From Candidatus Alcyoniella australis (GTDB lineage Bacteria > Lernaellota > Lernaellaia > JAVCCG01 > Alcyoniellaceae), in the NCBI GenBank assembly GCA_030765605.1, contig JAVCCG010000127.1:1-26034 (forward strand): 26,034 nt of DNA, read 5' to 3'. The notes under the pieces were generated by a model. It saw nothing but the letters and a program-made list of their open reading frames with translations, ran no database searches and was not told the DNA's origin. A program made the position numbers and the translations under genes. Positions 1,733-23,235 of this stretch are shown here, piece by piece. Every line of letters begins with the position of its first letter. Position 1 is the first letter of the stretch.

Positions 1733-1885
1733 CGCCCGTCCCTAAGCCAGCTCGAATTTCACACCCGATCGATCCCCAATCATTGCACGATACAGTGACC
1801 AATATCACCGGCCCCAGGTGTTTGGTATGTGATAAGATGTTTGTTTGCAACTGCTTGGAACAACCCAAGCACGGAGGAACTGCCG

Positions 1886-3274
1886 GTGACAATACGTAAT
1901 TGGGGATGGAGCCTATTGCTGGTGCTGTTTATCCCCGCATTGGCCCACTCACAATGCACCAACAACTGGGGCTATGCTGAGCCGACCCCCGAGCGCTTCT
2001 ACCGCGGCAACGCCGCCTACTATAACGGCAACGTCTACATTACAACCGGCGAGTTCGACGGCCGCGTCTACCACAACGACGTCTGGGTCTACGACGTGGG
2101 GCGCGATACCTGGGAGGAATCCGGGGCGAGCTACGACGCCACGGGCTGGACCAACGCCTGCATGGTGCAGTACCAGGCGCAGCTCTATGTGGTCGGCGGA
2201 TTCAGTGCCGGAGTCTACAGCGACGACCTGAAGATCTACGACATTGCCGCCGACACCTGGTCCGCGGGACCCGACCTTCCGTTCACCACCTCGGGCTCCT
2301 ACTGCGCGCTGATCGACGATCAGATCCACGTTGCCGGCGGCACGCCGAGCTATCAGTCGTCGCATGCGGTCTACGACATCTCCGAGGGCACCTGGGACGA
2401 CAGCGTTGCCGACCTGCCTAGCGGCCGGGCCTTCGGCCTGGGCGCCACGGACGGCGAGCTGTTCTATGTGATCTCCGGCCTGGTCGGACCGACCACCGAA
2501 TTCCTGGCCTACGACCCCTCCGAGGATACCTGGAGCGCGCTGCACGACCTGAACTCGGGCCGGATGTCTCCCGGTGGAGGGTTTGCCGAAGATCAGCTCT
2601 GGGTGTTCAACGGCGGAGGCCAGAACAACGACCCGTGGATCCCGCGTCCCAGCGCCGAGATCTACGACAGCGACGCGGACAGCTGGCAGTTCCTCCCCAC
2701 CACTCCCAGCGTGGAGCCGATCGCCCCGGCCTCGGCCTTCGTTCCCGAATACGGCGGTCTGTGGCTGCTGTTCGGCGGCACCTACGGCGGCAACGAATAC
2801 AACTACACCCAGGTCTATTCGTTCTGCTACGCGGCCCTCGAGGGGGTCGTCCCCACCGTCGGATACAACGGCTCCGACGCCGAGATCGCCATCAGCGGCT
2901 GGGGATTCGAGGCTGACGACGAGGTCTACCTGATTAACGATCTCGACCTGCGCAGCGACTTCTCCGAGGCAATAGTCGTTGCCGACGGCACAATCGAGGC
3001 CGTGGTCCCCCAGGGCGCGACCCCTGGCACCTACGACCTGGTGATCATCAGTTCCAGCGGCGAACAGGACGAACTGCTCAGCGCCTACCAGGTGATCGAG
3101 GGCAGCGCTGACGACGATGATGACGACGACGATGACGACTTGGATGACGACGACTTGGACGACGACGACAGCGCCGACGACGATGATCTGGACGACGACG
3201 ACCTCGACGATGACGACGATGATGACCACGTCAGCGCCGGTGACGACGATGACGACGCCGGCTGCTGTGGATAA
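1886..3274 (+). CDS. Secreted kelch/TIG protein with Asp-rich, Cys-ended tail
   Basis: The start is set at GTG 1886 because GGAGG lies at 1873-1877, 8 nt upstream, and the product then begins with a clean signal peptide ending near Ala-His-Ser-Gln; the frame is open further upstream but has no such signals. The 462-residue product has about six kelch units (roughly residues 30-320; Gly-Gly or similar pairs followed by a Tyr-Asp...Trp pattern), predicting a beta-propeller. A TIG/IPT-like Ig domain follows (about 322-405), then a ~55-residue tail of Asp runs broken by Leu, Ser-Ala and His-Val, ending Ala-Gly-Cys-Cys-Gly. It is paralogous to the minus-strand kelch gene at 4264-5877, sharing cysteines in equivalent blades. 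The likely role is a cell-surface or secreted binding protein; the ligand is unknown. Confidence 0.85.
   Translation: MTIRNWGWSLLLVLFIPALAHSQCTNNWGYAEPTPERFYRGNAAYYNGNVYITTGEFDGRVYHNDVWVYDVGRDTWEESGASYDATGWTNACMVQYQAQLYVVGGFSAGVYSDDLKIYDIAADTWSAGPDLPFTTSGSYCALIDDQIHVAGGTPSYQSSHAVYDISEGTWDDSVADLPSGRAFGLGATDGELFYVISGLVGPTTEFLAYDPSEDTWSALHDLNSGRMSPGGGFAEDQLWVFNGGGQNNDPWIPRPSAEIYDSDADSWQFLPTTPSVEPIAPASAFVPEYGGLWLLFGGTYGGNEYNYTQVYSFCYAALEGVVPTVGYNGSDAEIAISGWGFEADDEVYLINDLDLRSDFSEAIVVADGTIEAVVPQGATPGTYDLVIISSSGEQDELLSAYQVIEGSADDDDDDDDDDLDDDDLDDDDSADDDDLDDDDLDDDDDDDHVSAGDDDDDAGCCG
3110..3257 (+). repeat. Asp-codon tract (DDDDL-like units)
   Basis: A nearly continuous run of GAC and GAT codons at the 3' end of the kelch gene encodes runs of Asp punctuated by Leu, giving repeated Asp-Asp-Asp-Asp-Leu units. 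GAC and GAT are mixed irregularly, so the protein composition seems selected rather than being a pure triplet repeat grown by slippage. The same type of tract opens the lipoprotein at 1-30 and ends the kelch gene around 4312-4362, both on the minus strand. Confidence 0.85.
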
Positions 3275-3285
3275 GGCGGGAAGGT

Positions 3286-3307
3286 AAAGATCGATAAATC
3301 GATCTTT
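3286..3307. terminator. Hairpin after kelch gene, probable terminator
   Basis: AAAGATCGAT at 3286-3295 pairs perfectly with ATCGATCTTT at 3298-3307. The stem starts with A-tract and ends with T-tract, so it can act in either direction. It lies 11 nt after the stop of the plus-strand kelch gene, between convergent genes. Confidence 0.6.
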
Positions 3308-3316
3308 GTGTGTAAG

Positions 3317-3352
3317 GCTCGCCTGGGGCACCTTTGAGGTGCCGCCGCGAGC
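3317..3352. terminator. Second, GC-rich two-part hairpin between convergent genes
   Basis: The outer arms GCTCGC (3317-3322) and GCGAGC (3347-3352) enclose an inner perfect stem GGCACCT (3327-3333) / AGGTGCC (3337-3343) with a TTG loop. This strong two-tier structure has no U-tract on either side. It sits between the stop of the plus-strand kelch gene and the stop of the minus-strand lipoprotein gene, so it may back up termination or protect mRNA 3' ends. Confidence 0.5.
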
Positions 3353-3427
3353 AGCAACAGCAATTGCAGCAGGCGGCGGGCGGCGGGCGGCCGATCAGCG
3401 ACCCTGGATGCGGGTCGGTATAGTCCG

Positions 3428-4006
3428 CTAGTCCAGCGGCACGAACGTCACGGTGATCGTGAAGGTCAGCTTGACGTTCATCGAGACCGTGGCCTCTTCG
3501 GGCGCGAACTGGCCGCAGACCACGAACACGCCTTCGAGATCGCCCAGAAGTCCGTTGATGATGTTTTCACCGTCGTTGAGGAAAATCAGGTCGGTGGCCG
3601 CAACGTTCTGGGCTGCGGAAATGTTGTCGGTCTTGGCGAAGGCCATGCTCTCGTCGGTCAGGTCGTCCAGCGTGGTCCCATCGTCGCCGGTGTAGAACGT
3701 CAACACGCCGTCCGCCGAGTTGGCGTTGTCGCTGACCTCGTAGGTCGCCACGCTGAGCTCAACGCTCTCGATGTGCCCCTCGACCTCGTCCCAGCCGGGC
3801 AGCTCGCCGAGCAGCGAGGTGAAGTTATAGGCCGGCAGACAGATGCCGGTCTCGCCACCAAGGTCGACCAGCGGCAGGTCGAAGTCCACGCTGAAGTCCT
3901 TCTCCTGCTTGGTCGCATCGTTGACCGAATCCTTGGCTTCGTCACAGGCCGCGATCAACAGGCCCAGACACAGGACCAGGGCCAAGATCAATGTATATCT
4001 ACGCAT
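3428..4006 (-). CDS. Putative small lipoprotein of unknown function
   Basis: The gene starts at ATG 4006-4004 with AAAGGAG at 4012-4018, 5 nt upstream. The 192-residue product has an N-terminal Arg-Arg, a hydrophobic core and a lipobox Ile-Ala-Ala-Cys with Cys21. The mature part is acidic, with alternating hydrophobic segments that suggest an all-beta fold, and ends in a Thr/Val-rich strand (residues ~175-192). Only two further Cys residues (near 56 and 163) are present and could form one disulfide. It does not match a family I recognise. It lies between two inverted kelch paralogues and directly downstream of a palindromic repeat element, so its transcription may depend on a promoter within or beyond that element. 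Confidence 0.75.
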   Translation of the reverse strand: MRRYTLILALVLCLGLLIAACDEAKDSVNDATKQEKDFSVDFDLPLVDLGGETGICLPAYNFTSLLGELPGWDEVEGHIESVELSVATYEVSDNANSADGVLTFYTGDDGTTLDDLTDESMAFAKTDNISAAQNVAATDLIFLNDGENIINGLLGDLEGVFVVCGQFAPEEATVSMNVKLTFTITVTFVPLD

Positions 4007-4022
4007 GAGTGCTCCTTTGCTT

Positions 4023-4202
4023 GCCCGGATTATTCATGAAGCTTCTACTGCGGCGCACAATCTGCTCACAACAACTGCGTCATCCTCGCCGATCCGTCCT
4101 CGACGTACCACAGCGGGTACGCCTGCGGAGTATCGACTCGGCTTTCTAGTTCTTGCGGCATCTTGCACGCCTCGCTAACGAACCCTCATGAATAATCCAG
4201 GC
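4023..4202. mobile_element. MITE-like 180-bp imperfect palindrome
   Basis: The ends are inverted repeats of 17 bp with one mismatch: GCCCGGATTATTCATGA at 4023-4039 and the complement of GCCTGGATTATTCATGA at 4186-4202. Partial complementarity continues inward for about 15 more bases, and a 6-bp hairpin (CGTACC 4104-4109 / GGTACG 4116-4121) lies exactly at the centre. GCTT occurs on both sides (4019-4022 and 4201-4204) and could be a short target duplication. No coding capacity is evident. The element occupies the leader of the lipoprotein gene, ending only 4 nt from its Shine-Dalgarno. It could be a non-autonomous transposon or a REP/BIME-like repeat; no transposase is in the window. Confidence 0.6.
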
Positions 4203-4263
4203 TTGGTATTTATTTATCAACCGGTTAATTCTATCAGCCGCCGCAGCAGGCTAACAACTCATA

Positions 4264-5877
4264 TCAGCAACCGCAGCTCTCGTCGTCATCTTTCGACATT
4301 CCGGGATCGGCGATGTCGTCGTCCTCCGGATCGCCGTCGTCATCGTCGTCCTCGTCAGTGTCGTCGCCTGTGGGCAGGCACTTGTCGAGCCCCTCGTCGC
4401 AACGCTGATCCGCGGCGCAGGGGTCGCCCGCGTGATCGGCGCAACTGCCGGAGAGGCACAAGTCCGAGCCGTTGCAGAACAGCTCATCGTCGCAAGCCAC
4501 GCCGTCGTTGAACGACCAGTCGAAGCGCGCGCGCGTCGGATCGCAGAGCAGGCAGAGGTTGGTGGGGTGAGTCTGGCCGACATCGATACATTGCTCGCCG
4601 ATCAAGCAGCCGCAGACGGTCAGGGCGTCCTCAATGCGAGCGCTCTCGCCGCTGGAGCTTTGGACCACCAGATCGTAGAGCCCGACGCGGGCAAACGCGC
4701 CGACGCTGCCGGTGATAGTACGCGCGTCCGGGACTTGCAGGTCGCTCAGGCTCTCGATCCAGTCGTCGTCCTCGAGATAGGCTGTGTCATAGCGCTCGAA
4801 GCCCCAGCCATCGATGGTCAGCTCGGTCGGTGCTCCATTGACCGCCAGCGAAGGCGAGACCGACTCAAGCTGAGCCACGCACAGGTTGAGGATCTGCGTC
4901 TCGTTGCGCTCGTGGTCGATCTGGGTCCCGCCGAACACGTAGAGCGCTCCGCCGTGGCGGCCGGGCACAACGGCGCTGGCCGACGCGGTCACGGGCACCA
5001 GCGGTGCGCTGAGCGTCTCCCAGTGATTCGCACCGATGCGGTAGCGTTCCGAGCCGGTCAGCGGGTCCCACCAATCGGGCACGCCGTGTACAACGTCGCC
5101 GCCGCTGACCGCCCACAGCGTTGATCCTGCATATCCGCCCGCGGGCGACATTCGCGCGTCGCCCATCCGGTCGAGCTCGGCCCAGATCTGGAGTTGCGGA
5201 TCGTAGGCGTAGCTGCGGTCGTCGCTGTCGGAGCCGAACACGTAGAAGCGCTCGCCGTCCGTGGCTCCCAATCCGTAGGCGCGCGCCGTGGGCAGATCGG
5301 CCGTTCCGCTGTCCCAGGAGTTGGTTGCGATGTCGTATGCCGCATGATGCTTGTGCATCGAGTACGGCGCGTCGGAGCCGCCGGCCAGGTAGACCTTGCC
5401 GTCGATCTGCGCGCAGTACGATCCCGAGGCGAGGAATGGAACGTCGGCGCCCATGGTCCAGGTGTTGCCGGCGATGTTGTAGATCCGCGTGGCCTGCAGG
5501 AAAACCGTGCTGCTCTTCCAGCCGCCGAACATATAGACCTTGCCTTGGTAGGCCACGGCGCAGGTGTTCATCCAACCTTGCAGGTCGTAGGGCGCGCCCA
5601 GGGACCAGGTGTCGGAATCAACGTCGTAGATCCAGACGCGGTTTAAAAAACCGCCTTCGGCAAGCCCTCCGCCAACCAGGTAGATCTTGCCCTCAGAGTG
5701 GACCGCGCTGCTGCGGAAAATGCCTTGGGGCGTCTGATGGCCCAGGGTCCAGCCGTTGGAACAGGCCTGGCCCAGACACGGCGCAACACCACAGAAAAAG
5801 AACAGTCCCGCGCAAAGCGCAATCAACGTCGCACTGCGTATCAGTGTTGACCGGCCGACCTTGGAAAAAATCATCAT
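4264..5877 (-). CDS. Secreted kelch/TIG protein with Cys-rich module and acidic Cys-ended tail
   Basis: The 537-residue product starts with a basic then hydrophobic signal sequence ending near Cys-Leu-Gly-Gln-Ala. Six kelch units follow (about 45-340) and a TIG/IPT-like domain (about 341-420). A region with about 12 closely spaced cysteines (about 425-505) looks like the small disulfide-rich modules common in secreted myxobacterial proteins. The last ~30 residues are mainly Asp/Glu and end Glu-Ser-Cys-Gly-Cys. It is a clear paralogue of the protein encoded at 1886-3274: the Gly-Ser-Tyr-Cys-Ala and Leu-Gly-Ala-Thr-Asp-Gly-Glu blocks occur in the same blades. ATG 5877 and ATG 5874 are both possible starts and neither has a clear Shine-Dalgarno. 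The likely role is surface adhesion or binding; the ligand is unknown. Confidence 0.85.
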   Translation of the reverse strand: MMIFSKVGRSTLIRSATLIALCAGLFFFCGVAPCLGQACSNGWTLGHQTPQGIFRSSAVHSEGKIYLVGGGLAEGGFLNRVWIYDVDSDTWSLGAPYDLQGWMNTCAVAYQGKVYMFGGWKSSTVFLQATRIYNIAGNTWTMGADVPFLASGSYCAQIDGKVYLAGGSDAPYSMHKHHAAYDIATNSWDSGTADLPTARAYGLGATDGERFYVFGSDSDDRSYAYDPQLQIWAELDRMGDARMSPAGGYAGSTLWAVSGGDVVHGVPDWWDPLTGSERYRIGANHWETLSAPLVPVTASASAVVPGRHGGALYVFGGTQIDHERNETQILNLCVAQLESVSPSLAVNGAPTELTIDGWGFERYDTAYLEDDDWIESLSDLQVPDARTITGSVGAFARVGLYDLVVQSSSGESARIEDALTVCGCLIGEQCIDVGQTHPTNLCLLCDPTRARFDWSFNDGVACDDELFCNGSDLCLSGSCADHAGDPCAADQRCDEGLDKCLPTGDDTDEDDDDDGDPEDDDIADPGMSKDDDESCGC

Positions 5878-5928
5878 TCGCCGCAGAATTTTACCAGAAA
5901 CCCACGCGGCCCGCCCGGATAATGCGGA

Positions 5929-6981
5929 CTATGGGCACGATCCACCATAGAGGTTTGGACCGCGATAACTCGCGCCGTCGAGGTAATTGTTGCCCACGCC
6001 TTTGAAACACAACAGCGTGCCCGAACCGTTGTCGCGCAACACTCCAAGGTGGAACTCGTTGCCGAATACCAGGTTGGAGCGGGAAAGCGCCGGGCTGCCC
6101 TTCTCGATTCGCAGCACCTCGATCCGCTCGGATTCGCCGACGCGAATCAGGGTCGGCTCCTCAATAGCGTAGCGCAGGGGTTCGATGCCGGCCAGCTCCT
6201 GTAACTTATCCGCGGTGCGGATCACGTTGCCGGTGAACACGTTGTGCGATGAGCCCTGGATGTGGCTGCCCGACTTGGCCCCGAGATCCAGGGTGTTGTG
6301 CTGAATCACGTTGTAGTTCGAGGCCACCAGCCAGATCGCGTTGCAGCCGTCCTCGTTGCGGGTAACGATGGTGTTGTGCTCGACTAGGTTCCCGCCGCCG
6401 CCGTAGAGAATCAGGTTGGACTCCATCGAGTCGACAACGTCGCTGCGCGAGTCCACACGCCTGATCACCGAATCGAAACAGGCACGGCAGGCGATTCCCG
6501 AGGTCCGCGTCTGGCGCACGACCAGATCCTCGATCAGTATCCGGCGGTTGATCGCTCCAGGTCCGCCGCCGATGTCGACGTACATCTCGGCTACGTTCTC
6601 GATTCTGATTTGCCGCAACCGCAGGTCTTGGGCCGACCCGCCGGAGATACCGATCGTAAATTCTTCAAGCGCCAGTCCGCGCAGTTCCACATCGCTCAGC
6701 GGCCCGGCGAGCATCACGCCGGTCCCCTGGCCGTTGCCGCGGATCGTTACCCCCGTCGCGTCAACCTCGAACCCAGTCCCGCGCACGATCAGCACCCCGG
6801 GCTCGCCGCGATCCTCTATCAGATACGGTTCGTCCGAGGGACACAGCCGCACGTCCGACTCGATCAGCAGATCGTCGCGCGGCATAACGCAGGACGCGCC
6901 CTCGGGCTCGAGCGCCGCGACCAGGGCGCAGCACCACACCGCGGGTATAACAAGCGAGAGCAGCGCAGCAGTTTGACGCAT
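5929..6981 (-). CDS. Secreted right-handed beta-helix (PbH1-repeat) protein
   Basis: The 350-residue product has an N-terminal signal peptide (about 1-23) and then short repeats with the rhythm of parallel beta-helix proteins: Val-Thr-Ile-Arg-Gly-Asn-Gly near 80, and Asn-rich turns such as Asn-Leu-Val-Glu-His-Asn, Asn-Val-Ile-Gln-His-Asn and Asn-Val-Phe-Thr-Gly-Asn around 200-260. These resemble NosD/periplasmic copper-binding-type and pectate-lyase-like PbH1 repeats. Six or so cysteines suggest extracytoplasmic disulfides. No catalytic residues were identified, so it may be a polysaccharide-binding or -cleaving protein, or purely structural. It begins 28 nt after the stop of the receiver-DUF4388 gene on the same strand and is probably cotranscribed; no strong ribosome binding site is seen. 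Confidence 0.75.
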   Translation of the reverse strand: MRQTAALLSLVIPAVWCCALVAALEPEGASCVMPRDDLLIESDVRLCPSDEPYLIEDRGEPGVLIVRGTGFEVDATGVTIRGNGQGTGVMLAGPLSDVELRGLALEEFTIGISGGSAQDLRLRQIRIENVAEMYVDIGGGPGAINRRILIEDLVVRQTRTSGIACRACFDSVIRRVDSRSDVVDSMESNLILYGGGGNLVEHNTIVTRNEDGCNAIWLVASNYNVIQHNTLDLGAKSGSHIQGSSHNVFTGNVIRTADKLQELAGIEPLRYAIEEPTLIRVGESERIEVLRIEKGSPALSRSNLVFGNEFHLGVLRDNGSGTLLCFKGVGNNYLDGASYRGPNLYGGSCP

Positions 6982-8620: not shown

Positions 8621-8840
8621 GACACTCCCCCACATCGAACTGCGAACAGCCCGATCGCCGATAAATCCCGTGGCCAAGGCGAGCCAATATAGACCCGCTA
8701 AAACGAATACATCCAGCCGAAGCTTAAACTAAAGTGTCATTGTATGCGACAAATGTAAAGGGATTTTCAGGAAGTATGGCAGAAGCCATCCCTCCCTTTT
8801 ACAATCGGTCCCTGCGGGGTTATTCCTGCTCTGGCTGCGC
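8621..8840. other. Intergenic region, boundary of AT-rich island
   Basis: The stretch lies between the start of the receiver-DUF4388 gene and the stop of the secreted island protein, both minus-strand genes. It contains a small hairpin ATGGC-AGAA-GCCAT (8776-8789) flanked by AAAGGGAT and TCCCTTTT, which together might form a weak terminator for the island operon. No gene was recognised. Confidence 0.3.
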
Positions 8841-10370
8841 CTAGTCCGACTTCTTGGAAGTGGCGTTGCCGATCATCTTAGCGAGGGTGACCACGTCGAT
8901 AGTGGCGCCGACCACCCAATCCACGGAATCATCCCAATCGCCCCATTTGTATTTGACCGGCAGATCGGCCTCATCGCCGTCGAACTTATCGCCCTCTTCG
9001 TGTGGGCCCCTGAGGGTATTTACCTTATGGACGCTGGCTCCCACAGTAAAATAGATACCCCCGAAGTAGAGGTTGTCCGTAACGTAGAAACGGTCCTGGG
9101 GCGCTTCGGCGTCAATGCCCAAACCTAGATTGAAAAGTAGTGCAATCAATGAGAAGCGGTCGAACGACCAGTTGTTCACATTTTCGTCCAGGCCTGCGGG
9201 ATGGATGATGAAAGCCGGGATCAGACTGCAACCCTCGGTTTCCTTGTCGCTGCGGATGGTCTTGGTTGTAACCTCTTCACCCTCTTCATTGGTGGTTGTA
9301 TCGCTATGCAGGAGAAACGTCTTTCCCCTCGTAAAGTCATATACATATTGAACGCCGAACGTTCCACAGTAGACATTGCTGAGTTTGAAGCTGCTTTGTT
9401 GTTTTTCGCCGTAGACCGTATCGATGGTGATCTTGACCTCGCCAGCCCCGCAATCAAGCTTCGCAAGTTCGATTGTTCTAAATTTAATCTGATTGTCAGG
9501 ACACTTAAAACCACCATTTTCTTTTGCAGCAGCACGAGATTGGCTGCTAATAATTGCTTTAACCGCCTCAAACGAGCCTAAAATCCGCCGTAATAATTTC
9601 TTAGGACATTCAATATTCAGATAATGTGTATAATTCAATTGCTTTTTATCTAAGAGCTCATATGCTTCGTTTTCATTCAGAGTGTCCGCTGGTAACAGCA
9701 ACTCTAAAATTATTTTATCGCCCTCGCTCAATCCCGATGGAATCGGTTTGACCGGGCTGCCATCGGGCATAAAATAAAGGGTTACTTTCTTACGACCTGT
9801 CCAGATATTGTTAATACTTTCGTTATCTATTCCATTTGTGATCACCCATCTAATTGCCTGTTGTTCAACACAACTACAGACGTCATCTGATAGGTTTTCT
9901 ACTTCCTCGGTTTTTTTCACGCCTTCCGACGGCTTCCCACCACCACTCTCCTCCGATTCTTCTACAGCAATTTTAATACTATCCTCGTTATTTTTGTTTT
10001 TATCGATTTGTGCCTTCACGACAATTTCATAATTCACACCTTCCGTTAGAGTCAGATTTTCGATCTTTATCTCATTTGTTGCACCGTCAGTTGCTTTCCC
10101 ATTTATATCTGATCCGGAAACTCGGTCTCCTCGATTCAATTCATAGTAAATCGCCTCTGAAAGTCTTACTTTATCCTCGCTGGATTGGACGACGATGATA
10201 TACTTCCCTGGCTTGACAGACGTCCCATCGTAGCTGCATTTCAATTCACCGTCATCGTCTATCGTGCATTTTATAGTCAAAGTGTTTTCTTTTGATAATG
10301 CCGGCTGTGTGGCCAGGATGATGATCGCCGCAAGAATCACAACCGAAAGCAACTTATATTGTTTCTTCAT
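8841..10370 (-). CDS. Large secreted protein of unknown family, island gene 2
   Basis: The start at ATG 10370 is chosen because AGGAG lies 6 nt upstream and the product then opens with Met-Lys-Lys and a typical Sec signal peptide (about 1-26, ending Pro-Ala-Leu-Ser); the frame is open to 10466 but that would overlap the upstream gene. The 509-residue product has a Lys/Asn/Glu-rich N-terminal half with an Ig-like strand pattern (about 30-130), then about nine cysteines spread over the rest, and a C-terminal part (about 390-470) with Gly/aromatic-rich alternating strands that could be membrane-associated beta structure. I do not recognise the family. It starts 31 nt after the trypsin-like peptidase gene and shares its AT-rich codon use, so the two form one transcription unit. 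Confidence 0.75.
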   Translation of the reverse strand: MKKQYKLLSVVILAAIIILATQPALSKENTLTIKCTIDDDGELKCSYDGTSVKPGKYIIVVQSSEDKVRLSEAIYYELNRGDRVSGSDINGKATDGATNEIKIENLTLTEGVNYEIVVKAQIDKNKNNEDSIKIAVEESEESGGGKPSEGVKKTEEVENLSDDVCSCVEQQAIRWVITNGIDNESINNIWTGRKKVTLYFMPDGSPVKPIPSGLSEGDKIILELLLPADTLNENEAYELLDKKQLNYTHYLNIECPKKLLRRILGSFEAVKAIISSQSRAAAKENGGFKCPDNQIKFRTIELAKLDCGAGEVKITIDTVYGEKQQSSFKLSNVYCGTFGVQYVYDFTRGKTFLLHSDTTTNEEGEEVTTKTIRSDKETEGCSLIPAFIIHPAGLDENVNNWSFDRFSLIALLFNLGLGIDAEAPQDRFYVTDNLYFGGIYFTVGASVHKVNTLRGPHEEGDKFDGDEADLPVKYKWGDWDDSVDWVVGATIDVVTLAKMIGNATSKKSD

Positions 10371-10401
10371 TTCTAACTCCTGTTCGTTCTGTTTTAATCG
10401 T

Positions 10402-11328
10402 TCAGAGGATACTTGCGAACTCCGTGAAGTAAGAGTGCTTATTATCCTCAAAATAACTTCCTTCATCTCCTCCGGTTAATAATCCAAGCGGCGTTAAAGA
10501 TTTTTCGTCCCATAAGATCGTGCCACTGTCGCCATGCGACGTGCAGAGTTGGGTCTGGATTAATAAGTCGAATTTATATATTTTGCCCATGACCTTGACC
10601 TTGACGTTGCTTCGATGAATATCCTGAATGTCAACCGGTACAATCCTGTTTTCGTTGGGAATATATACCTCGAAGGATCTATTTTTAGAGATTTCATCCT
10701 TGCCTTCAGCTAGCCGGGGTTTCTTGAACTCTTTTAGCTTATTTTGACAGAATATTTTATTCTCAAAATGTCCTTCGATGGTTAGCTTGATTTTTACAAT
10801 ATCCAAGGACAGAGTACTGTAGAATGTTTCCTGAACAGTTCCGATTTGGTTTTGATAACAATAAACAGCAGTACCCTTTTTTGCTTGTACTCCCACTACA
10901 TGTGCAGCTGTTAGGGCATACCATTGATCGCCTTTTTTAAAAAACCAAGAGATAACTCCGTCGTGTTTATTGCGGGCTGTAACCGGCTTTGTGGCTATTG
11001 GTGCACAGAGAGTTAGGTTTATCACCTTGTGTGCTTGAATCACCCGTTTTGGTTGCTGAATTACATCGGTTGGAAATCTATACTTAACTTTATCGTGTTG
11101 AAAATTAAAGGATTTCGGAATGACTTTTATATTTTTCTTTTTCGGTAATTCTGTCTTTTCATACTTGCGGGAGACATAGAGCCTTATGCTCAGCTTCTTC
11201 GTGCGCTTGCCAGCACTGTATTTGCGGCCCATGCCCACAGATTGAACACCATAGCCCTTATCCTTGCCGACGAACTTCTTCCGGGCTTTCTCAACTGCTA
11301 ACAGCTCAATGGCAACGGGGATTGACAT
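10402..11328 (-). CDS. Trypsin-like serine peptidase with Nal1-type N-terminal domain
   Basis: The 308-residue product starts at ATG 11328 with GGGAGG at 11334-11339, 5 nt upstream. The C-terminal ~190 residues have all three chymotrypsin-fold motifs: Thr-Ala-Ala-His (His143), Ser-Leu-Asp-Ile-Val-Lys (Asp176) and His-Gly-Asp-Ser-Gly (Ser268). The N-terminal ~90 residues have the pattern Gly-Val-Gln-Ser-Val-Gly-Met-Gly-Arg-Lys, an Ile-Arg-Leu-Tyr-Val strand, Val-Ile-Pro and Pro-Thr-Asp-Val-Ile, which resembles the domain that precedes the peptidase in Nal1-like bacterial proteins. There is no signal peptide and the N-terminus is very Lys-rich, so the enzyme is probably cytoplasmic. It is the first gene of an AT-rich operon with a large secreted protein. 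The substrate is unknown. Confidence 0.85.
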   Translation of the reverse strand: MSIPVAIELLAVEKARKKFVGKDKGYGVQSVGMGRKYSAGKRTKKLSIRLYVSRKYEKTELPKKKNIKVIPKSFNFQHDKVKYRFPTDVIQQPKRVIQAHKVINLTLCAPIATKPVTARNKHDGVISWFFKKGDQWYALTAAHVVGVQAKKGTAVYCYQNQIGTVQETFYSTLSLDIVKIKLTIEGHFENKIFCQNKLKEFKKPRLAEGKDEISKNRSFEVYIPNENRIVPVDIQDIHRSNVKVKVMGKIYKFDLLIQTQLCTSHGDSGTILWDEKSLTPLGLLTGGDEGSYFEDNKHSYFTEFASIL

Positions 11329-11638
11329 TAGGGCCTCCCAGGCTTGAACAAGGCTGCCGTTGCTTAGTTGGATTTATTATATTATTTTTTATTTTTATAG
11401 CAAATTATCCCTTGATTAGCAAGCTTTTATTAATATATTGATATGTATTTGACATTAAACCATTAATCCCTTTAGGCTCATTGCTTGCTAAACGGGTAAA
11501 CTGCCTCGTATCAATCAACACGCCTATGGACGCGGCTTTTCGACCCATGGGTTGGCTACTCGGGACAGCGGTGCGGTTATTGGACGCCCTCCGCCGATTT
11601 GACAGCAGCCCTCCGGCTCTTCAGACTTCCGGATCGAG
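11329..11638. other. AT-rich divergent intergenic region
   Basis: The 310-bp gap separates the minus-strand peptidase operon from the plus-strand asparagine-synthase-like gene. Bases about 11365-11470 are strikingly AT-rich and include a good minus-strand promoter (listed separately). TTGACA at 11449-11454 with TTTAGG at 11471-11476 could be a weak plus-strand promoter. From about 11520 composition returns to GC-rich; the frame of the downstream gene is closed by TGA at 11600-11602 and contains no start before 11639. No RNA gene was recognised. Confidence 0.5.
11394..11422 (-). promoter_or_regulatory. Sigma70-type promoter of the peptidase operon
   Basis: On the minus strand, TTGCTA (11422-11417) and TATAAA (11399-11394) are separated by exactly 17 nt. 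Transcription would begin near 11387, leaving a leader of about 58 nt before the peptidase start. Confidence 0.55.
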
Positions 11639-13417
11639 ATGGGCATCGAGGCAATTCACGGCGAGTTGGACCTGGAGGGCGCGCAGGAAGCGCGTTTCCG
11701 GCCGTCGTCCGGGTGCGTCGAGCTGTCGCAGAGCGGTTTGAGCGGCCTGTTTCACGGAGAGCTGTACAACCGCGACGAGCTGATCCAAGGCCTCGGAACC
11801 TGCCCCAAGGACATTATCGACAGCGAGCTGGTCCTGAGGCTCTACGAGCGTTGGGGCGACGAATGTCTGGCAATGCTCGACGGCCGTTTCAGTATGGCGT
11901 TGTGGGATACGCCGCAACGCAGGCTGCTGCTGGCGCGCGACCGCTTTGGCCAGGCCACGCTCTATTGGCACCAATGCGGCGCAAGCCTGGCCTTTGCCTC
12001 GCAGCTCGACGCCCTGACATCTTCGCCGGGTTTCGCTCCGCAGCTGGATCGGGCCGGGCTCAACGAGTATCTCAGTCAGGGCTATGTCTGCCCGCCGCGC
12101 ACCATGTTTCAGGGGGTCCACGCGCTGAAGCCCGGCCAAGCGCTGAACTTTGATCAAGGCGGCGTGCGCGAGTTCGATTATTGGTCGCTGCCCGATCAGT
12201 TGGAACCCGCGGCGTCCGAGGATCAGCTGGTCGAGCAAATGCGCGAGCTGTTGGCGCGCGCGGCCAAACGCAGGTTCAGCAGACACCAGCGGCCCGTGAT
12301 GCTGCTCAGCGGCGGAATCGACTCGGCCCTGCTGGCCTGTCTGGCAGCGGAAAACAACGGCCGTGTGTCCGCCTATCACGCGGGATTCGGCGACCTCGCC
12401 TTTGACAACCGATGCTGGGCGTCCGAACTCATGCGCTGGGGATTGGTCGACCTGCACGGCATCTCGCTGCAACACGACGCTCTGCGCATGTTGCCCGAAC
12501 TCGTGCGCCACGACCACGAGCTGTGCGCCAATCCCTCGAGCCTGCCGATCCTGGCCCTGGCGCGCGAGATCGGCCAAGGGACGACAGTGGACACGATCTT
12601 CACCGGCACGGGCATGGACGAGCTGATGGCGGGCTGCGAAACAATCAGGGCGGACCTGTTCGCCCATTACTATGGACGATTCGCGCCCAAACAGTTGCAG
12701 CGCATGTTGGCCGCGCGGGCCGAGGCACTGAGCGATACGGCCTGGCCCGTGGGGTGGCGTTTCAGGATCAAGCTGCTGCTCAGGGGTGCGCAATACGGGC
12801 CGAGCCGCGCACACATCTTTTGGCGTGAGTCCCTCGGCGATCAGCGCAAGGCCGAGCTGCTGACCGACCCGACGCTTGCCGAAACCGGCGAGCCCCACGG
12901 GCAGTACGCCGCACTGCTGGCGAACGTCGCCGGGCCCGCGAACTTCAACCGGATCGCCAACGCCGACCTGAGGATCCTCTCGCCGTGCTGGAATCAGCAG
13001 ATGTTCCGGCCGGGATTGCGCGCCGCGGGCCTCAGTCCGTGCCATCCATACCTGGACAACGAGCTGGCGCGGTTCTGCATTGAGCTGCCGTTTCGCTACA
13101 AGCTGCGCGGGCTGCGCTCCAAGTACCTGCTCAAGCGCGCCGCAAGTCGCTGGCTGCCCCGGCGTCTGGTGAACCAGCGTAAGCGCGGGCTGAGCGTGCC
13201 GGTGGGCGAATGGATCCGCTGCGACCGTCACGAGTTGGTCGAGCGTTACCTCGGCCCGGAACGGATGTGCAAGTTGGGGTTATTCGATCCGCGGGCCGTG
13301 TCGGAACTGCGCGAGCAACATCGCCGAGGCGGCGAGGATCACACCTTCAGCATCTGGACGCTGCTGGTCTTCTCGGCCTGGCACGAGGCGCACCTCGAGG
13401 CCAAGCCCTCGACCTAA
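11639..13417 (+). CDS. Asparagine-synthase-like protein lacking the glutaminase Cys
   Basis: The 592-residue product matches class II amidotransferase/asparagine synthetases from the motif His-Gly-Glu-Leu-Tyr-Asn (39-44, family Asn-Gly-Glu-Ile-Tyr-Asn) onward. It keeps the Phe-Ser-Met-Ala-Leu-Trp-Asp and Ala-Arg-Asp-Arg-Phe-Gly segments of the glutaminase fold, the ATP-pyrophosphatase loop SGGIDS (224-229), Gly-Thr-Gly-Met-Asp-Glu-Leu, and the C-terminal Lys-Tyr-Leu-Leu-Lys block. The family N-terminus (Met-Cys-Gly-Ile and the Arg-Gly-Pro-Asp region) is missing, and an in-frame TGA at 11600 rules out a simple upstream extension. It may use free ammonia or another amine, as in natural-product or polysaccharide-modifying relatives, or be 5'-truncated. 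It ends 5 bp from the stop of the convergent protease gene. Confidence 0.8.
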   Translation: MGIEAIHGELDLEGAQEARFRPSSGCVELSQSGLSGLFHGELYNRDELIQGLGTCPKDIIDSELVLRLYERWGDECLAMLDGRFSMALWDTPQRRLLLARDRFGQATLYWHQCGASLAFASQLDALTSSPGFAPQLDRAGLNEYLSQGYVCPPRTMFQGVHALKPGQALNFDQGGVREFDYWSLPDQLEPAASEDQLVEQMRELLARAAKRRFSRHQRPVMLLSGGIDSALLACLAAENNGRVSAYHAGFGDLAFDNRCWASELMRWGLVDLHGISLQHDALRMLPELVRHDHELCANPSSLPILALAREIGQGTTVDTIFTGTGMDELMAGCETIRADLFAHYYGRFAPKQLQRMLAARAEALSDTAWPVGWRFRIKLLLRGAQYGPSRAHIFWRESLGDQRKAELLTDPTLAETGEPHGQYAALLANVAGPANFNRIANADLRILSPCWNQQMFRPGLRAAGLSPCHPYLDNELARFCIELPFRYKLRGLRSKYLLKRAASRWLPRRLVNQRKRGLSVPVGEWIRCDRHELVERYLGPERMCKLGLFDPRAVSELREQHRRGGEDHTFSIWTLLVFSAWHEAHLEAKPST

Positions 13418-13422
13418 GGCGT

Positions 13423-15174
13423 TTACGGTTGGGGATCCTCTGAGCCGTCGTTCGGTTGTTCCTCGGGCACGACCACGTCGTTCACCGGCTCGAGCAGCCG
13501 CCGCGCCGCGCTGAGCATGGTTTCGTTGGTCGGCGGCGGCAACGAGCTGAGCAGGTCCTGGGCCAGGAGCATCAGCGCATCCGGGTCCTCGGCCTCGAGT
13601 TCCTCGGGCACGCGTCCGGCGTTGCGGTAGAACCAGTAGAGCTTCTCCGCGTCCACGCGCAGGCCTGCCCGGCTCTGCTCGGGCGAGCTATTGGGCAGGA
13701 AGCCCTCGAGGTTCTCCTCGCCAAAGGGCCGGTCGAGTTCGCCCTCATCGGTTGTGTAGTACAGCTGGATGTCGGGAACAATACCCGAGGCCTGAATCGA
13801 GCGTCCCGAAGGCGTGTAGTACATGCTGGTGGTCAGCGCCACATGGCTCTGGTCGTCGACGCTGATAATGCTCTGCACCGAGCCCTTGCCGAAGGTAGTG
13901 CCGCCGATGATCAGCCCGCGGCCCTGATCCTGGATCGCTCCGGCCACGATCTCGCTGGCCGAGGCGCTGCCGAAGTTGGTGAGCACGATCAGCGGCACGT
14001 CGTTCAGTGTGCCGCGACGTCCGGCCTTGATCACGCTGGAGCTGTTGGGTGCACGGCCGCGGGTCGAGACGATCACGCCGCTTTGGATGAAGTCGTCGGT
14101 CACGTCGACCGCCGCTGTGAGCAGGCCGCCGGGATTGTTGCGCAGGTCCAGCACCAGACCGCGCAATCCCTGAGGCCCGTCCTGAAGCTGTTGCAGGGCG
14201 CGGCGCAGGTCGCCGGCTGTCTTGCGGTTGAACTGGCGTACGCGCACGTAGCCCACGCCGTGCTCCAGCGCCTGGAAACGCACGGCCTCGACCTCGATCG
14301 TGCCGCGCACGATGCTCACGTCGAACGGCTGCTCAAGCCCCTCGCGCTCGATAGAGAGCACCACCGGCGTACCCTGGGGGCCGCGGATCTTTTCCACCGC
14401 GCCGAACAGTGTGATGTTCACAGCCGAGCGGCCGTCGATGGCCACGATCAGGTCGCCGGCGAGCAGCCCCGCGCGATGAGCCGGAGTGCCCTCGATCGGC
14501 GCAATCACCGTCAGCCGACGGTCGCGCATGCCGATCTCGATGCCGATGCCGCCGAAGCTGCCCGAGGTTTCCTCTTCAAACCTGCGCGCCTCTTCGGGGT
14601 CGATGAAGTCCGAGTGCGGGTCCAACCGCGCGAGCATGCCGCTCAACGCGTAGTACAGCAGCTCGCGCTGATCGATCTCGCCGCCGTGCTGCGCGGCGAA
14701 GCTGCATCCGGCAAGCAGCTGCTCGATCCGCTCTTCGCGCCCGCCGGAGAAGTCGAGTTGCTTGGTCTCGCCGCGCACCTCGAGTGTCACCGCGTCCGGC
14801 GGGTCGCCCGGGCCCACGGTCGTCGAGGCGATCTTCGGTTCCTCGGGCTGCGCCGGGTCGGACTGCGCGTCCTGAGGCTCAGCCTCGGGCAGGGGCTCGG
14901 TTGCGGCCTCGGGGTCGATCGGCTGTTCTTCGTCGATCGGCGGCTCGTTTAAAAATTGCACGCCCTGGGCAATCGCCTCTGCGGCCCAGACCATCAGCAT
15001 GCGTTCGTCGACCTGCTTGATGTAGTGGTCTTCCACCAGCTCGAGGGTCGAAACGACCAGCACCGCGTCGCCCGCCGGCTCGGCTCCGTGCAATTGGGCC
15101 GGTACGCGCCACAGCGCTGCCGCCGCGATCAGCGCGGCGAGCAGCAACAGTTGGATCGTGCGTTTGAGTCTCAC
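13423..15174 (-). CDS. C-terminal processing protease, S41 family (CtpA-like)
   Basis: The start is set at GTG 15174, with AAAGGAG about 10 nt upstream and 22 nt after the MoxR gene; a longer frame to 15240 would overlap MoxR. The 583-residue product has an N-terminal membrane segment or signal (about 4-24), a helical region interrupted by an acidic Pro/Glu/Ala-rich linker (about 77-118), a PDZ domain (about 206-283) and the S41 catalytic core. Catalytic Ser405 lies in Gly-Ser-Ala-Ser-Ala-Ser-Glu, followed by Asp416 and Lys430 (Phe-Gly-Lys-Gly-Ser-Val-Gln), the spacing known for Tsp/CtpA. It trims or degrades periplasmic proteins from their C-termini. It is the last gene of the MoxR/VWA operon, so its substrates may include those membrane proteins. 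The linker is unusual for the family. Confidence 0.92.
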   Translation of the reverse strand: MRLKRTIQLLLLAALIAAAALWRVPAQLHGAEPAGDAVLVVSTLELVEDHYIKQVDERMLMVWAAEAIAQGVQFLNEPPIDEEQPIDPEAATEPLPEAEPQDAQSDPAQPEEPKIASTTVGPGDPPDAVTLEVRGETKQLDFSGGREERIEQLLAGCSFAAQHGGEIDQRELLYYALSGMLARLDPHSDFIDPEEARRFEEETSGSFGGIGIEIGMRDRRLTVIAPIEGTPAHRAGLLAGDLIVAIDGRSAVNITLFGAVEKIRGPQGTPVVLSIEREGLEQPFDVSIVRGTIEVEAVRFQALEHGVGYVRVRQFNRKTAGDLRRALQQLQDGPQGLRGLVLDLRNNPGGLLTAAVDVTDDFIQSGVIVSTRGRAPNSSSVIKAGRRGTLNDVPLIVLTNFGSASASEIVAGAIQDQGRGLIIGGTTFGKGSVQSIISVDDQSHVALTTSMYYTPSGRSIQASGIVPDIQLYYTTDEGELDRPFGEENLEGFLPNSSPEQSRAGLRVDAEKLYWFYRNAGRVPEELEAEDPDALMLLAQDLLSSLPPPTNETMLSAARRLLEPVNDVVVPEEQPNDGSEDPQP

Positions 15175-15196
15175 GTTCCGTCCGCTCCTTTGCAAC

Positions 15197-16195
<999 letters not shown>

Positions 16196-16214
16196 CGGTC
16201 GCTCCCTTTAGTCC

Positions 16215-16243
16215 AGCCCGAATTATTTTCGACAATCCAGGCT
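16215..16243 (-). repeat. Intra-operon stem-loop made of the GCCYGGATT motif
   Basis: In the minus-strand transcript AGCCTGGATT (16243-16234) pairs with AATTCGGGCT (16224-16215), 10 bp with two G-U pairs and a 9-nt loop. The first bases overlap the TAG stop of the double-VWA gene, and the MoxR ribosome binding site follows about 10 nt later. The left arm matches the ends of the palindrome at 4023-4202, so this may be a degenerate miniature copy. It could set the relative expression of MoxR or be an mRNA processing site. Confidence 0.55.
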
Positions 16244-18788
16244 AAATTCTCCTTAGTACGGTTCCGAGCAGCACCATTGCCAGCGCGGCGTACAGCAGGT
16301 ACGGCCACAGCTCGCGGCTGTCCGGGAAACGCTCCTTGCCCGGCTCGAAGACCTCTTCGGCCGGTGGATCGAACTTGCCGCCGCTGATCTGGGCCAGCGC
16401 GCGAAGCAGTCCGCGATCGGTCTGCGTCTTGACGAACTCGCCCGGCGGCTCGAGCTGAACGCGGCCGATTCCCTCGGAGCGCAGCTCGCCGGTCTGGGGC
16501 CTGACGCTGATCGTGTAGCCGCCGAACCCGCTGTGCGGAAACTCTCCGCTGTAGCCGCCGGGGCGGTCCTGGATCAGCTCCACGCGCTGCCGGGTCAGGT
16601 CGGGTTGAACAACGTCCATCTGCAGCGGCATGTTATTGATGAAATCGCCGTGCGCGTCCGTGGCGTCCACCGCGACCCGCACGCTCTGGCCAGCGGGCTG
16701 AGCAGTAACCGCGAAATTCTGCAGGTTGCGGTCGCGCATCGTGTGTCGCGCCATGCGCCCCACCAGCGGGCCGTAGCGATCCCACTCCAGCCAGTCGGCG
16801 CTCCATTGGCCGCGCAGGTCCGCGCAGAACACCGTGACCTTGCCCAGGCCCAGGCTCCAGCGCGAGAGCAGCGGCTCGCGCTCCTTGGCCAGCAGATAGG
16901 TCTCGGAGGTCGGCCGCGACTCGGCGGAGTTGTAGCCGCGCAGCTCGGGCAGCGGCTCGAGATCAAGGCCGTCGAACATCTCGCCTGCCTGCAGCAGCTC
17001 GGGCTCGAAGGTGTCCTCGACGATGTTGGTGCGCGTGACCGTCTTGGTCTCCTCGAGCAAAATATCGGGAATCGATTCGGGATCCTCGATGTAATAAAAG
17101 CGCCCCTGGCCGTAGCGGGCGATGGTCCGCAGGTGTTCGCGGTCCGACTCGCGTCCCACGGCCACAGTGCTCACCGTGATCTCCTTGCGCGCCATGCCCT
17201 CGACGATGTCGCCGTTGTGCTCAAAGCGCGTGGTCGAGATGCCGTCGGTGAGCAGGATCACGTGCTTGACGCGCGCCTCGCTGTCGCGCAGCTCGCCGTA
17301 GGCGCGCCGCAAGCCCGGGTAGATGCTGGTGCCGCCGTCAGTGCCCAGCTTGTACAGCCGCTCGCGGATTAATTCGCGTTGCTCGATGTCGGTCAGCCCG
17401 AACAGTACGTAGGGCAGGTCGTCGAAAAGGATCACGCTGACCCGGCTGCGCTCGGGCAGCGCGTTGAGCAGTTGCTCCACCGCGGCCTGGGCCAGACCGA
17501 ACTTGTTCTGGCGCGCCATGCTCGCCGACTTGTCGATCAGGATCACCAGCTCGACCGGGTTGGGCTCGGTCTTCTTCTTGAGCTTGAACTCGACCGGCAG
17601 CAGCGGTTCGATCGGGTGCTGCTCCTCCTCGCCCAGGATCTGGCTGTCCTCTCCGGCGATCAGCAGCAGTCCGCCGCCGGTACGGCGCAGATAGTCCTCG
17701 AGCCGATCGGCGTCGGCCTGCTCGAAGCCCTCGAAGGTCAGACTGGAGAGCACCACCAGATCAAAGGGTGTCAGTCCGCCGCGCGGCAGACCGCTGTTCT
17801 CGGCCACGTCCAGCCGCAGCCCCTCGGCCTCGAGTGCGGCGAGCAGCGGCGCGTCGTCCGCCAGATTCTCGGTGACGAACAGCGCGCGCGGCTTGGAGAC
17901 CACGCGCAACGTACCGGCCAGTCGATTGTTGTTCGGCACCTGATCGAGCTCGGAGCCGACGCGTCCGACCACGCCCTGGTCGCCCTGGGACCCGGCGTCG
18001 AAATCGAACTCGACGTTGTTCTGTCCGATCAGCAGCTCGACCTGCTCAACCTGGGTCTTGCCCCCGGCGCTGAGTGAAATAGCGGCCGGACCGGCGAAGT
18101 TGCTCATCACCTTGACCCGTACGTGTACGCGCTCGCCGGGTCGTGCCTGGCGCGGAAGGCTCAGCGACTCGATGTAGGCGTCCACCAGGCCCAGGGTTTG
18201 CAGCGGAACGCTGTAGAGCTCGATCCCGCGCGCCTGGGCGGCCCGCGCCTCGGCCAGCAAATCGCCCCGAGTCTGGTTGCCGTCGCTGAGCAGCACGATC
18301 CGCCGCGTGGCGTCGGCCGGCAGCAGCTCCATTGTGGCGTGCACCGCGCGGGCGATGTCCGAGCTCATCGTCTGCTCGGGTCGCACGATCTGCTCGTACC
18401 AATCCTCCGCCCCGAGCACCTCGGGACTGTGGGCGAACAGCACGCCGCGCGCCCCGGCGTCGCCGCGCACGGCGTAGGCCCGCGCCGCATAGTCCGCAGC
18501 CGCAGCGAGCTGGTCGTCGGGCACCGAGGCCGAGGCGTCGACCAGCAGCGCCACCTCCAGCCGCTGTTCGTAGCGCGTGGCCACGACCTGGATCAGCGCC
18601 GCCGCGATCAGCAGCAGCAGCAGGCTGCGCGAAATCGCAAAGGCCGCGCGCAAAGGACGCGACATGCTCAGCCGACTGCGGAAGGCGATGATCCAGACCA
18701 GCGTCGGCAGCAGCGCCGCGGCCACCAGCGCGCCGATCAGCCAGGCGCCGCGAGCCTCAACGCTCAGCTCGGGCAGCCGCTCAAGCAA
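16242..18788 (-). CDS. Membrane protein with two VWA domains and a GATase1-like region
   Basis: The gene starts at TTG 18788, with GGAGG 5 nt upstream, and overlaps the previous gene by 8 nt (TTGCTTGA). The 848-residue product has two N-terminal transmembrane segments (about 15-35 and 50-70), a first VWA domain with MIDAS Asp84-Ala-Ser-Ala-Ser, a beta-rich linker, a region like class I glutamine-amidotransferase/ThuA folds (about 300-400), a second VWA domain with MIDAS Asp419-Lys-Ser-Ala-Ser, a beta domain and a C-terminal membrane anchor (about 828-845). This layout is known from large VWA proteins in MoxR/BatA operons. The soluble part is probably periplasmic. Its stop codon lies within a repeated GCCYGGATT motif. 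The physiological role is unknown; envelope integrity is a reasonable guess. Confidence 0.88.
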   Translation of the reverse strand: MLERLPELSVEARGAWLIGALVAAALLPTLVWIIAFRSRLSMSRPLRAAFAISRSLLLLLIAAALIQVVATRYEQRLEVALLVDASASVPDDQLAAAADYAARAYAVRGDAGARGVLFAHSPEVLGAEDWYEQIVRPEQTMSSDIARAVHATMELLPADATRRIVLLSDGNQTRGDLLAEARAAQARGIELYSVPLQTLGLVDAYIESLSLPRQARPGERVHVRVKVMSNFAGPAAISLSAGGKTQVEQVELLIGQNNVEFDFDAGSQGDQGVVGRVGSELDQVPNNNRLAGTLRVVSKPRALFVTENLADDAPLLAALEAEGLRLDVAENSGLPRGGLTPFDLVVLSSLTFEGFEQADADRLEDYLRRTGGGLLLIAGEDSQILGEEEQHPIEPLLPVEFKLKKKTEPNPVELVILIDKSASMARQNKFGLAQAAVEQLLNALPERSRVSVILFDDLPYVLFGLTDIEQRELIRERLYKLGTDGGTSIYPGLRRAYGELRDSEARVKHVILLTDGISTTRFEHNGDIVEGMARKEITVSTVAVGRESDREHLRTIARYGQGRFYYIEDPESIPDILLEETKTVTRTNIVEDTFEPELLQAGEMFDGLDLEPLPELRGYNSAESRPTSETYLLAKEREPLLSRWSLGLGKVTVFCADLRGQWSADWLEWDRYGPLVGRMARHTMRDRNLQNFAVTAQPAGQSVRVAVDATDAHGDFINNMPLQMDVVQPDLTRQRVELIQDRPGGYSGEFPHSGFGGYTISVRPQTGELRSEGIGRVQLEPPGEFVKTQTDRGLLRALAQISGGKFDPPAEEVFEPGKERFPDSRELWPYLLYAALAMVLLGTVLRRI

Positions 18789-20634: not shown

Positions 20635-21512
20635 TTGATGAACCGTCCGTAGCGGAAGGCCTGGAGTACAACCTCCTCGAACGGCACCCTGGTCTGGGTG
20701 GGCAGGTAGGTGCACTCGACCCCGATGCACAGTTTGCGCAGCTCTTCGCAGAACCGCTCGTACTCCTGGACGTAGCGCCGCAGCACGCGGCCGGTGATCG
20801 TCACGTGATGCACGCGGTCGGTCTCGGCGTCGGTGAAGCTGAATGCGCCGCGGTACTTGGGCTCGGCCTCGCGGTGATGGTGCACGCGCACGGCCACTAG
20901 GTCGAAGCCGTAGTGGTAGAGCGACTTGAGCGCCTTATCGCTGCCCGCCTCGTCGTAGAAGTCGGAGACCACAACCGCCAGGCCCTTGCCGCGGGCCTGT
21001 CGAAGGAAGGTTTGCACCGACTGCGAGATGTCGGTCTGGCCGCCCACCGGCGCCTGGTCGAGAAAATCAAAGATTTTGAGGATCTGCCCCTTGCCGCGCA
21101 GCAGCGGCAGGGTCTGGCCCAGATCGGAGCTGAAGGGGACGATGCTCACGCTGTCGAGGTTGGCCAGGGCGATGTAGGCCAGTGCGGCCACGATCTGCTT
21201 GGCGAAGTCCGCCTTATTGACCGTGCCGAAATCCATCGACCGCGAGAGGTCGAGCAGGAAGTAGACGTTGAGGTTCTCTTCTTCCTGGAACAGCTTGGTC
21301 GCCAGCTCGCCCACGCGGGCATAGAGATTCCAATCCAGGTAGCGCAGGTCGTCGCCCGGCGCGTACTCGCGGTGGTCGGCGAACTCCTGGCCCCAGCCGA
21401 CCTTCTTGGTGCGGGTCTGCGCCCGCAGCTTGCCGGCGAAGACCTTCTTGCTGACGATCGCCAGGTACTCGAGCTTCTTGAGGAAGTCGTCGTCGAACAG
21501 CTTCTGGGCCAT
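20631..21512 (-). CDS. DUF58 (VWA-like) protein
   Basis: The 293-residue product has the DUF58 signature Arg-Glu-Tyr-Ala-Pro-Gly-Asp-Asp-Leu-Arg-Tyr-Leu-Asp-Trp-Asn at 48-62 and a VWA fold with MIDAS Asp88-Leu-Ser-Arg-Ser. It has no signal peptide or membrane segment and is cytoplasmic, the usual arrangement for the short DUF58 form encoded with MoxR. It begins 19 nt after the preceding membrane-protein gene and its stop overlaps the GTG of the BatA-type gene. DUF58 proteins are thought to be direct partners of MoxR ATPases; the process served is not established. No clear Shine-Dalgarno is seen before ATG 21512. Confidence 0.93.
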   Translation of the reverse strand: MAQKLFDDDFLKKLEYLAIVSKKVFAGKLRAQTRTKKVGWGQEFADHREYAPGDDLRYLDWNLYARVGELATKLFQEEENLNVYFLLDLSRSMDFGTVNKADFAKQIVAALAYIALANLDSVSIVPFSSDLGQTLPLLRGKGQILKIFDFLDQAPVGGQTDISQSVQTFLRQARGKGLAVVVSDFYDEAGSDKALKSLYHYGFDLVAVRVHHHREAEPKYRGAFSFTDAETDRVHHVTITGRVLRRYVQEYERFCEELRKLCIGVECTYLPTQTRVPFEEVVLQAFRYGRFIK

Positions 21513-21531
21513 TATCAGTGGTTGCCGGGGA

Positions 21532-23136: not shown

Positions 23137-23235
23137 TAAGTGCAAAACTACCCTTTCCGTCCCCGTTTCGACATCACGGCGGCGGGCATGGTTCAAATTA
23201 CCACATCGGCCAAACAAGGCCCTATCGAGCCGGTT

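Follow-up and report, generated by a model that had tools for sequence, protein, structure and literature searches.

The closest described relative of the peptidase considered here is NARROW LEAF 1 (rice NAL1, maize ZmNAL1a), a crop-yield protein affecting plant leaf width. Its workings in the cell are understood only in part, and the maize form specifically cleaves a corepressor of the TOPLESS type (PMC12915138). The family also has bacterial, archaeal and viral members, and a limited literature search returned no description of the bacterial Nal1-type peptidases. As to proteases encoded next to a partner, those in bacterial gasdermin operons include trypsin-like and caspase-like enzymes, and the gasdermins themselves are cytoplasmic until cleaved. 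These operons combine a membrane-directed partner with an exchangeable protease (PMC9079055), and the AVAST, Hachiman and Lamassu systems contain pairs of a trypsin-like protease and a gated MBL nuclease (PMC12799240).

Here we describe a small bacterial relative of NARROW LEAF 1, P1, with a candidate partner, P2, encoded next door. P1 shares with NAL1 and its relatives the order of the two domains and the fold of the N-terminal one. Its triad His and Ser occupy corresponding positions and, like NAL1, it carries no signal peptide, but it falls below the Pfam thresholds for both domains, its core is strongly diverged, and an exported protein is encoded alongside. As in the AVAST, Hachiman and Lamassu pairs, which likewise occur in different settings, a leaderless trypsin-like peptidase gene adjoins that of its partner; in contrast to them, P2 is exported, has no nuclease match in Pfam and is not accompanied by a defence core gene. 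P2 does not qualify as an MBL-type nuclease partner, given its signal peptide and the lack of any match in Pfam, NCBIfam and PADLOC up to E 10. The gasdermin operons resemble the pair in that an envelope-directed partner stands beside an exchangeable protease; P2, which is about twice as long as a gasdermin, differs in its Sec signal peptide, which together with the lack of a match in Pfam speaks against a cytoplasmic gasdermin-fold partner.

Both genes lie on the minus strand of a 26 kb contig (C127; 26,034 nucleotides), the whole of which is the window analysed here and which belongs to a 4.29-Mb genome of 98% completeness. The original prediction of two genes 31 nt apart agrees with the open reading frames: P1 (10402-11328) encodes a leaderless NARROW LEAF 1-type serine peptidase of 308 residues and P2 (8841-10370) an exported protein of 509 residues, counted from the ATG, and the intervening gap (10371-10401, minus strand) holds the ribosome-binding site of P2 (AGGAG), which is good, as is that of P1 (GGGAGG). 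Together with the region upstream, they form an AT-rich island (about 8650-11550) with a GC content of 0.40-0.45 in sliding windows, compared to 0.60-0.70 around it, whose AT-richness tapers off at the 3' end of P2. Sliding windows were the check named for the predicted compositional difference, which persisted in them and was stronger still in GC3, with values of 0.45 for P1 (z -11.6) and 0.50 for P2 (z -10.1) against 0.846±0.034 for 14 flanking genes, whose codon choice is opposite to that of the pair. The foreign composition is thus common to P1 and P2, and their horizontal acquisition is well supported; the same low GC3, the same strand, the 31-nt gap and the ribosome-binding site of each gene point to a shared acquisition, as a two-gene unit from a low-GC donor. 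A promoter placed earlier at 11394-11422 was not recovered, the scan finding a chance-level count of seven promoter-like sites (5.3±2.3 by chance), with the best match upstream of P1 (TTGCTA-16-TATAAT) located instead at 11403-11376 on the minus strand.

Pfam, PADLOC, tRNA and repeat searches recognised no mobility gene, tRNA or flanking repeat in the 26 kb contig, to which the searches for the context of the island apply, and a larger element may extend past so short a window. No phage gene was recognised in the contig and no defence gene near the pair, the 10 other proteins of the window giving weak NTPase-type matches at most. The pair had been thought to represent a horizontally acquired module of a mobile conflict or defence system, possibly within a defence island: the acquisition is upheld by the composition of both genes, but the contig contains no recognised defence or mobility gene that would make it such an island. 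The flanks of the island show no synteny in six genomes of the same class, and since the flanking genes lack a syntenic counterpart there, no empty site is demonstrable. Elsewhere in the window, an operon-like row of MoxR, DUF58, two VWA-domain genes and an S41 peptidase gene (13423-23217) lies close to an asparagine synthase gene (11639-13417), and two Kelch-repeat proteins encoded on opposite strands (1829-5877) adjoin an EngA-type GTPase gene.

P1 comprises an N-terminal domain (about residues 1-95) and a trypsin-like core (about 105-308). Single-sequence searches with it were almost empty, and P1 itself stays under the Pfam thresholds for PF25608 (NAL1_N) and PF25819 (Nal1_C). The one useful lead, the PHROGs protease family phrog_20754 (5e-7), gave access to relatives in other genomes, one of which matches NAL1_N at 1.1e-7 and two Nal1_C at about 1e-4, and the profile of these relatives matches the solved NARROW LEAF 1 at 2.8e-10. 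A viral Nal1-type profile covers residues 14-94 of P1 at 28 bits and, weakly, the GDSG region. In the AlphaFold model, residues 1-90 reach a pLDDT of about 90 and the core is of low confidence; NAL1 chains occupy ranks 1-21 of the Foldseek search with this model, the N-terminal domain aligning with residues 88-173 of NAL1 (8pn1) at Z 9.6 over 84 residues and 2.5 Å, and the structural alignment extends over residues 3-308, including the core modelled at low confidence. This makes P1 a divergent member of the Nal1-type serine peptidases, and profiles and structure search bear out the original prediction of a Nal1-type N-terminal domain on a trypsin-like core. Residues 5-19 form the first helix, an integral element of the N-terminal fold, and P1 accordingly has no signal peptide. 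The triad of His143, Asp176 and Ser268 is intact and placed as predicted: His143 and Ser268, the latter in the GDSG motif (266-269), occupy invariant columns of alignment A1, and Asp176 lines up, as judged by eye, with the aspartate of the VDAAIA motif of the relatives. With such a triad, P1 would be expected to be proteolytically active. Further traits of Nal1-type peptidases are a hexameric assembly and the cleavage of a specific protein. Among the other matches, that to SAKeCEref in a PDB sequence search is a repeat artefact and two weak ones (L003, L004) are unrelated proteins; direct searches of plasmids, phages and viral contigs with P1 returned nothing.

P2 begins with a Sec-type signal peptide, MKKQYKLLSVVILAAIIILATQPALS, identified by eye and by hydropathy (3.38 over residues 8-19), with an AxS cleavage site assigned by eye, and so carries an export signal. 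A PG-x-Y segment, a helical middle and a C-terminal β-strand domain (about residues 334-493) follow. The view that this 509-residue exported protein belongs to no listed family proved correct, as P2 gave only noise in PHROGs besides the empty searches mentioned above; it has no sequence match to inhibitor families, and direct searches of plasmids, phages, viral contigs and genome contigs gave nothing. Its model is poor (pLDDT 32). The last 136 residues weakly match an exported-type protein from a Thermoanaerobaculia MAG (29% identity over 138 residues, pairwise E 2e-7), a match that alone could be due to chance given the number of genomes searched; other weak matches to the C-terminus (L031, L032, L034 and others) are unrelated proteins, for example transporters.

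With the C-terminal domain (8865-9383, minus strand) as the query and enlargement through profile and pattern searches, we collected a family of exported proteins (L052-L055, L121-L129), mostly from Acidobacteriota MAGs, which has no Pfam entry, was not found in viral contigs and for which a limited literature search gave no description. Against a profile of seven members, from which the protein found through P2 (L052) was left out, hhalign aligns P2 residues 334-493 colinearly with a score of 39.2 and an E-value of 3e-4, at probabilities of 39-50%, compared to a score of at most 21.8 in 75 controls (15 other proteins of the window and 60 shuffles). Direct HMMER-type sequence profiles built without P2 score it at 4-11 bits, partly no better than shuffled sequence, and the assignment consequently relies on hhalign and its controls, the architecture and the gene neighbourhood. 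Membership of P2 in the family is probable, at the limit of detection. Like P2, the proteins from Acidobacteriota MAGs combine a signal peptide with a C-terminal β-strand domain, marked in the family by the motifs GLG-x-D, TVG-x-x-x-H and L-x-G-x-Y/H-x-x-G, and in several loci have a serine peptidase for a neighbour; the signal peptides of five are clear and similar to that of P2, and some members share the PG-x-Y type segment behind it. They differ in being GC-rich, in their identity to P2 of only about 18-24%, and in adjoining subtilases or an ordinary trypsin rather than a Nal1-type peptidase. Many have long variable tails, and in a Thermoanaerobaculia MAG (G088) a histidine phosphatase domain is fused to the exported protein (L041:8579-10258, identical to L052:7131-8810).

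A subtilase gene lies within 3 kb of the exported-family gene in four of 11 loci (G550, G590, G687 and G655), which represent four different families of genomes. Given the number of subtilases measured in each genome, the expectation for the 11 loci is 0.15 neighbours of this kind, which gives a P(≥4) of about 1e-5, a value to be read with the fact that the pattern and the 3-kb limit were picked after the loci had been seen and that several contigs are short. The background was measured for subtilases (S8), to which this statistic applies; a trypsin (S1) is counted separately: in L127, the exported gene (2172-3791, minus strand) is followed with no gap by a trypsin-family gene (1353-2171) that encodes no signal peptide. 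Six of the 11 loci have neither an S1 nor an S8 neighbour, and in L054 a patatin-like phospholipase gene adjoins the exported one. The subtilases of G590 and G687 lack a signal peptide, and that of G550 is probably exported, as an ORF with a signal peptide precedes it in another frame. A frameshift or assembly error is likely in the same locus (L044:7045-8210 and 5502-6914), where the gene of the exported protein, and perhaps also that of the subtilase, is divided between frames. Overall, a link between the exported family and serine peptidases is probable. The original prediction that the two genes would be neighbours elsewhere was borne out in part: no relative of P2 was found beside a Nal1-type peptidase in any other genome searched, but the likely family of P2 repeatedly stands beside serine peptidase genes, including one leaderless trypsin. 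The puzzle of a cytoplasmic protease with an exported partner, raised at the same time, is not unique to this contig: leaderless peptidases occur near exported-family genes in at least three other loci (G587, with a trypsin, G590 and G687), so that the layout recurs with different proteases. P1 and P2 appear to be an instance of an arrangement that recurs and has not been described.

Our preferred reading, to which we assign a probability of roughly 40%, is that the acquired pair couples a Nal1-type peptidase to P2, the constant, exported part of an arrangement in which peptidases are swapped. P1 would be a soluble, cytoplasmic serine endopeptidase of the NARROW LEAF 1 type and P2 a Sec-exported envelope protein ending in a β-strand domain. 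The exported component appears to be kept while the neighbouring enzyme changes between S1 trypsin, S8 subtilase and Nal1-type peptidase, from which we infer that P2 is the constant and the peptidase the exchangeable element. P2, or something that it binds, would then be the most likely target of cleavage. Signal peptides are absent from P1, from the trypsin of G587 and from two subtilases, so that the partners would have to meet either before P2 is translocated, for quality control or to trim its precursor, or once the peptidase has left the cell through lysis or along a route that does not involve Sec; that the two work together, and where they would meet, is inferred. If the linkage holds, serine peptidases of several unrelated kinds would have the exported family as their constant partner, and the question becomes how a protease without an export signal works with a secreted partner. 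The wider form of this reading, in which constant exported β-strand proteins and exchangeable, mostly leaderless serine peptidases (S1, S8 and Nal1-type) make up an undescribed module across several bacterial lineages, the peptidase acting on its partner by a route other than ordinary secretion, is put forward tentatively, as more doubtful than its narrower form.

The main rival is that the two genes are unconnected and arrived together on the same stretch of foreign DNA, P1 as a protease that serves house-keeping or once belonged to a phage and P2 as a stray protein of the envelope, with a gap that is short by chance. Such an origin would agree with the single occurrence of the Nal1/P2 pair in the genomes searched, with an island that has no synteny in the six genomes of the same class and with the varied neighbours of Nal1-type genes on plasmids and viral contigs; we nevertheless regard it as rather unlikely, because serine peptidase genes lie near P2-type genes in other genomes much more often than expected, one of them encoding a leaderless S1 enzyme and directly adjoining the exported gene. 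Considerably less probable is a conflict or defence module, in which infection would release or activate P1 as a cytoplasmic effector protease and P2 would be an envelope sensor or pore-forming target, comparable to bacterial gasdermin or protease-nuclease systems. In AVAST and Hachiman, trypsin-like peptidases are established as partners of a nuclease that proteolysis activates (PMC12799240), and the foreign composition of the pair and the exchangeable enzymes beside a constant partner, including the patatin, would fit; yet PADLOC returned noise for P1 and P2 and only the weak NTPase-type matches for the ten further proteins, no STAND, helicase or other sensor gene adjoins the pair, and P2, unlike gasdermins or a gated nuclease, has a signal peptide.

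About as improbable as a defence module is an origin of P1 from a phage, in which case it would act on phage or host proteins, with P2 joining later. Nal1-type proteases are common in viral contigs: they are encoded by one large metagenomic phage and by gene 25 of the archaeal Aeropyrum coil-shaped virus (L080, L081), and one pattern scan found them at 28 viral loci (L082-L110, IMG/VR contigs). Among the neighbours of the viral genes are those for a UvsX-like recombinase, for tail proteins and for a glycosyltransferase. P1 fits this viral family in its N-terminal domain. P1 is, however, only 20-27% identical to the viral copies, none of which is close, the contig is devoid of recognised phage genes, and the family of P2 was not seen in viral contigs. 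We consider least likely a role of P2 in the periplasm as an inhibitor or scaffold shielding the envelope from serine peptidases of the cell itself or of dying neighbours. The linkage of an exported, β-rich family to several unrelated peptidase clans is what would be expected of a guard rather than of one specific substrate, but P2 resembles no inhibitor family, and the long variable tails of many members and the one histidine phosphatase fusion would be unusual for an inhibitor.

Beyond viruses, Nal1-type relatives of P1 are found on plasmids of Rubrobacter, Clostridiaceae, Rhizobium, Paenibacillus and others, and their neighbours vary; lipoproteins and secreted proteins are frequent among the other bacterial members. 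On one Rhizobium plasmid (L029:3809-5707), the Nal1-type peptidase domain is part of a protein annotated as a DNA/RNA non-specific endonuclease, and Nal1-type proteins annotated as endonucleases are also encoded on two more Rhizobium plasmids and one Streptomyces plasmid. On a plasmid of Rhizobium lusitanum (L027:2313-5894), radical SAM and HEXXH peptide-modification genes are followed by a Nal1-type gene, in an order that resembles a peptide-modification cluster.
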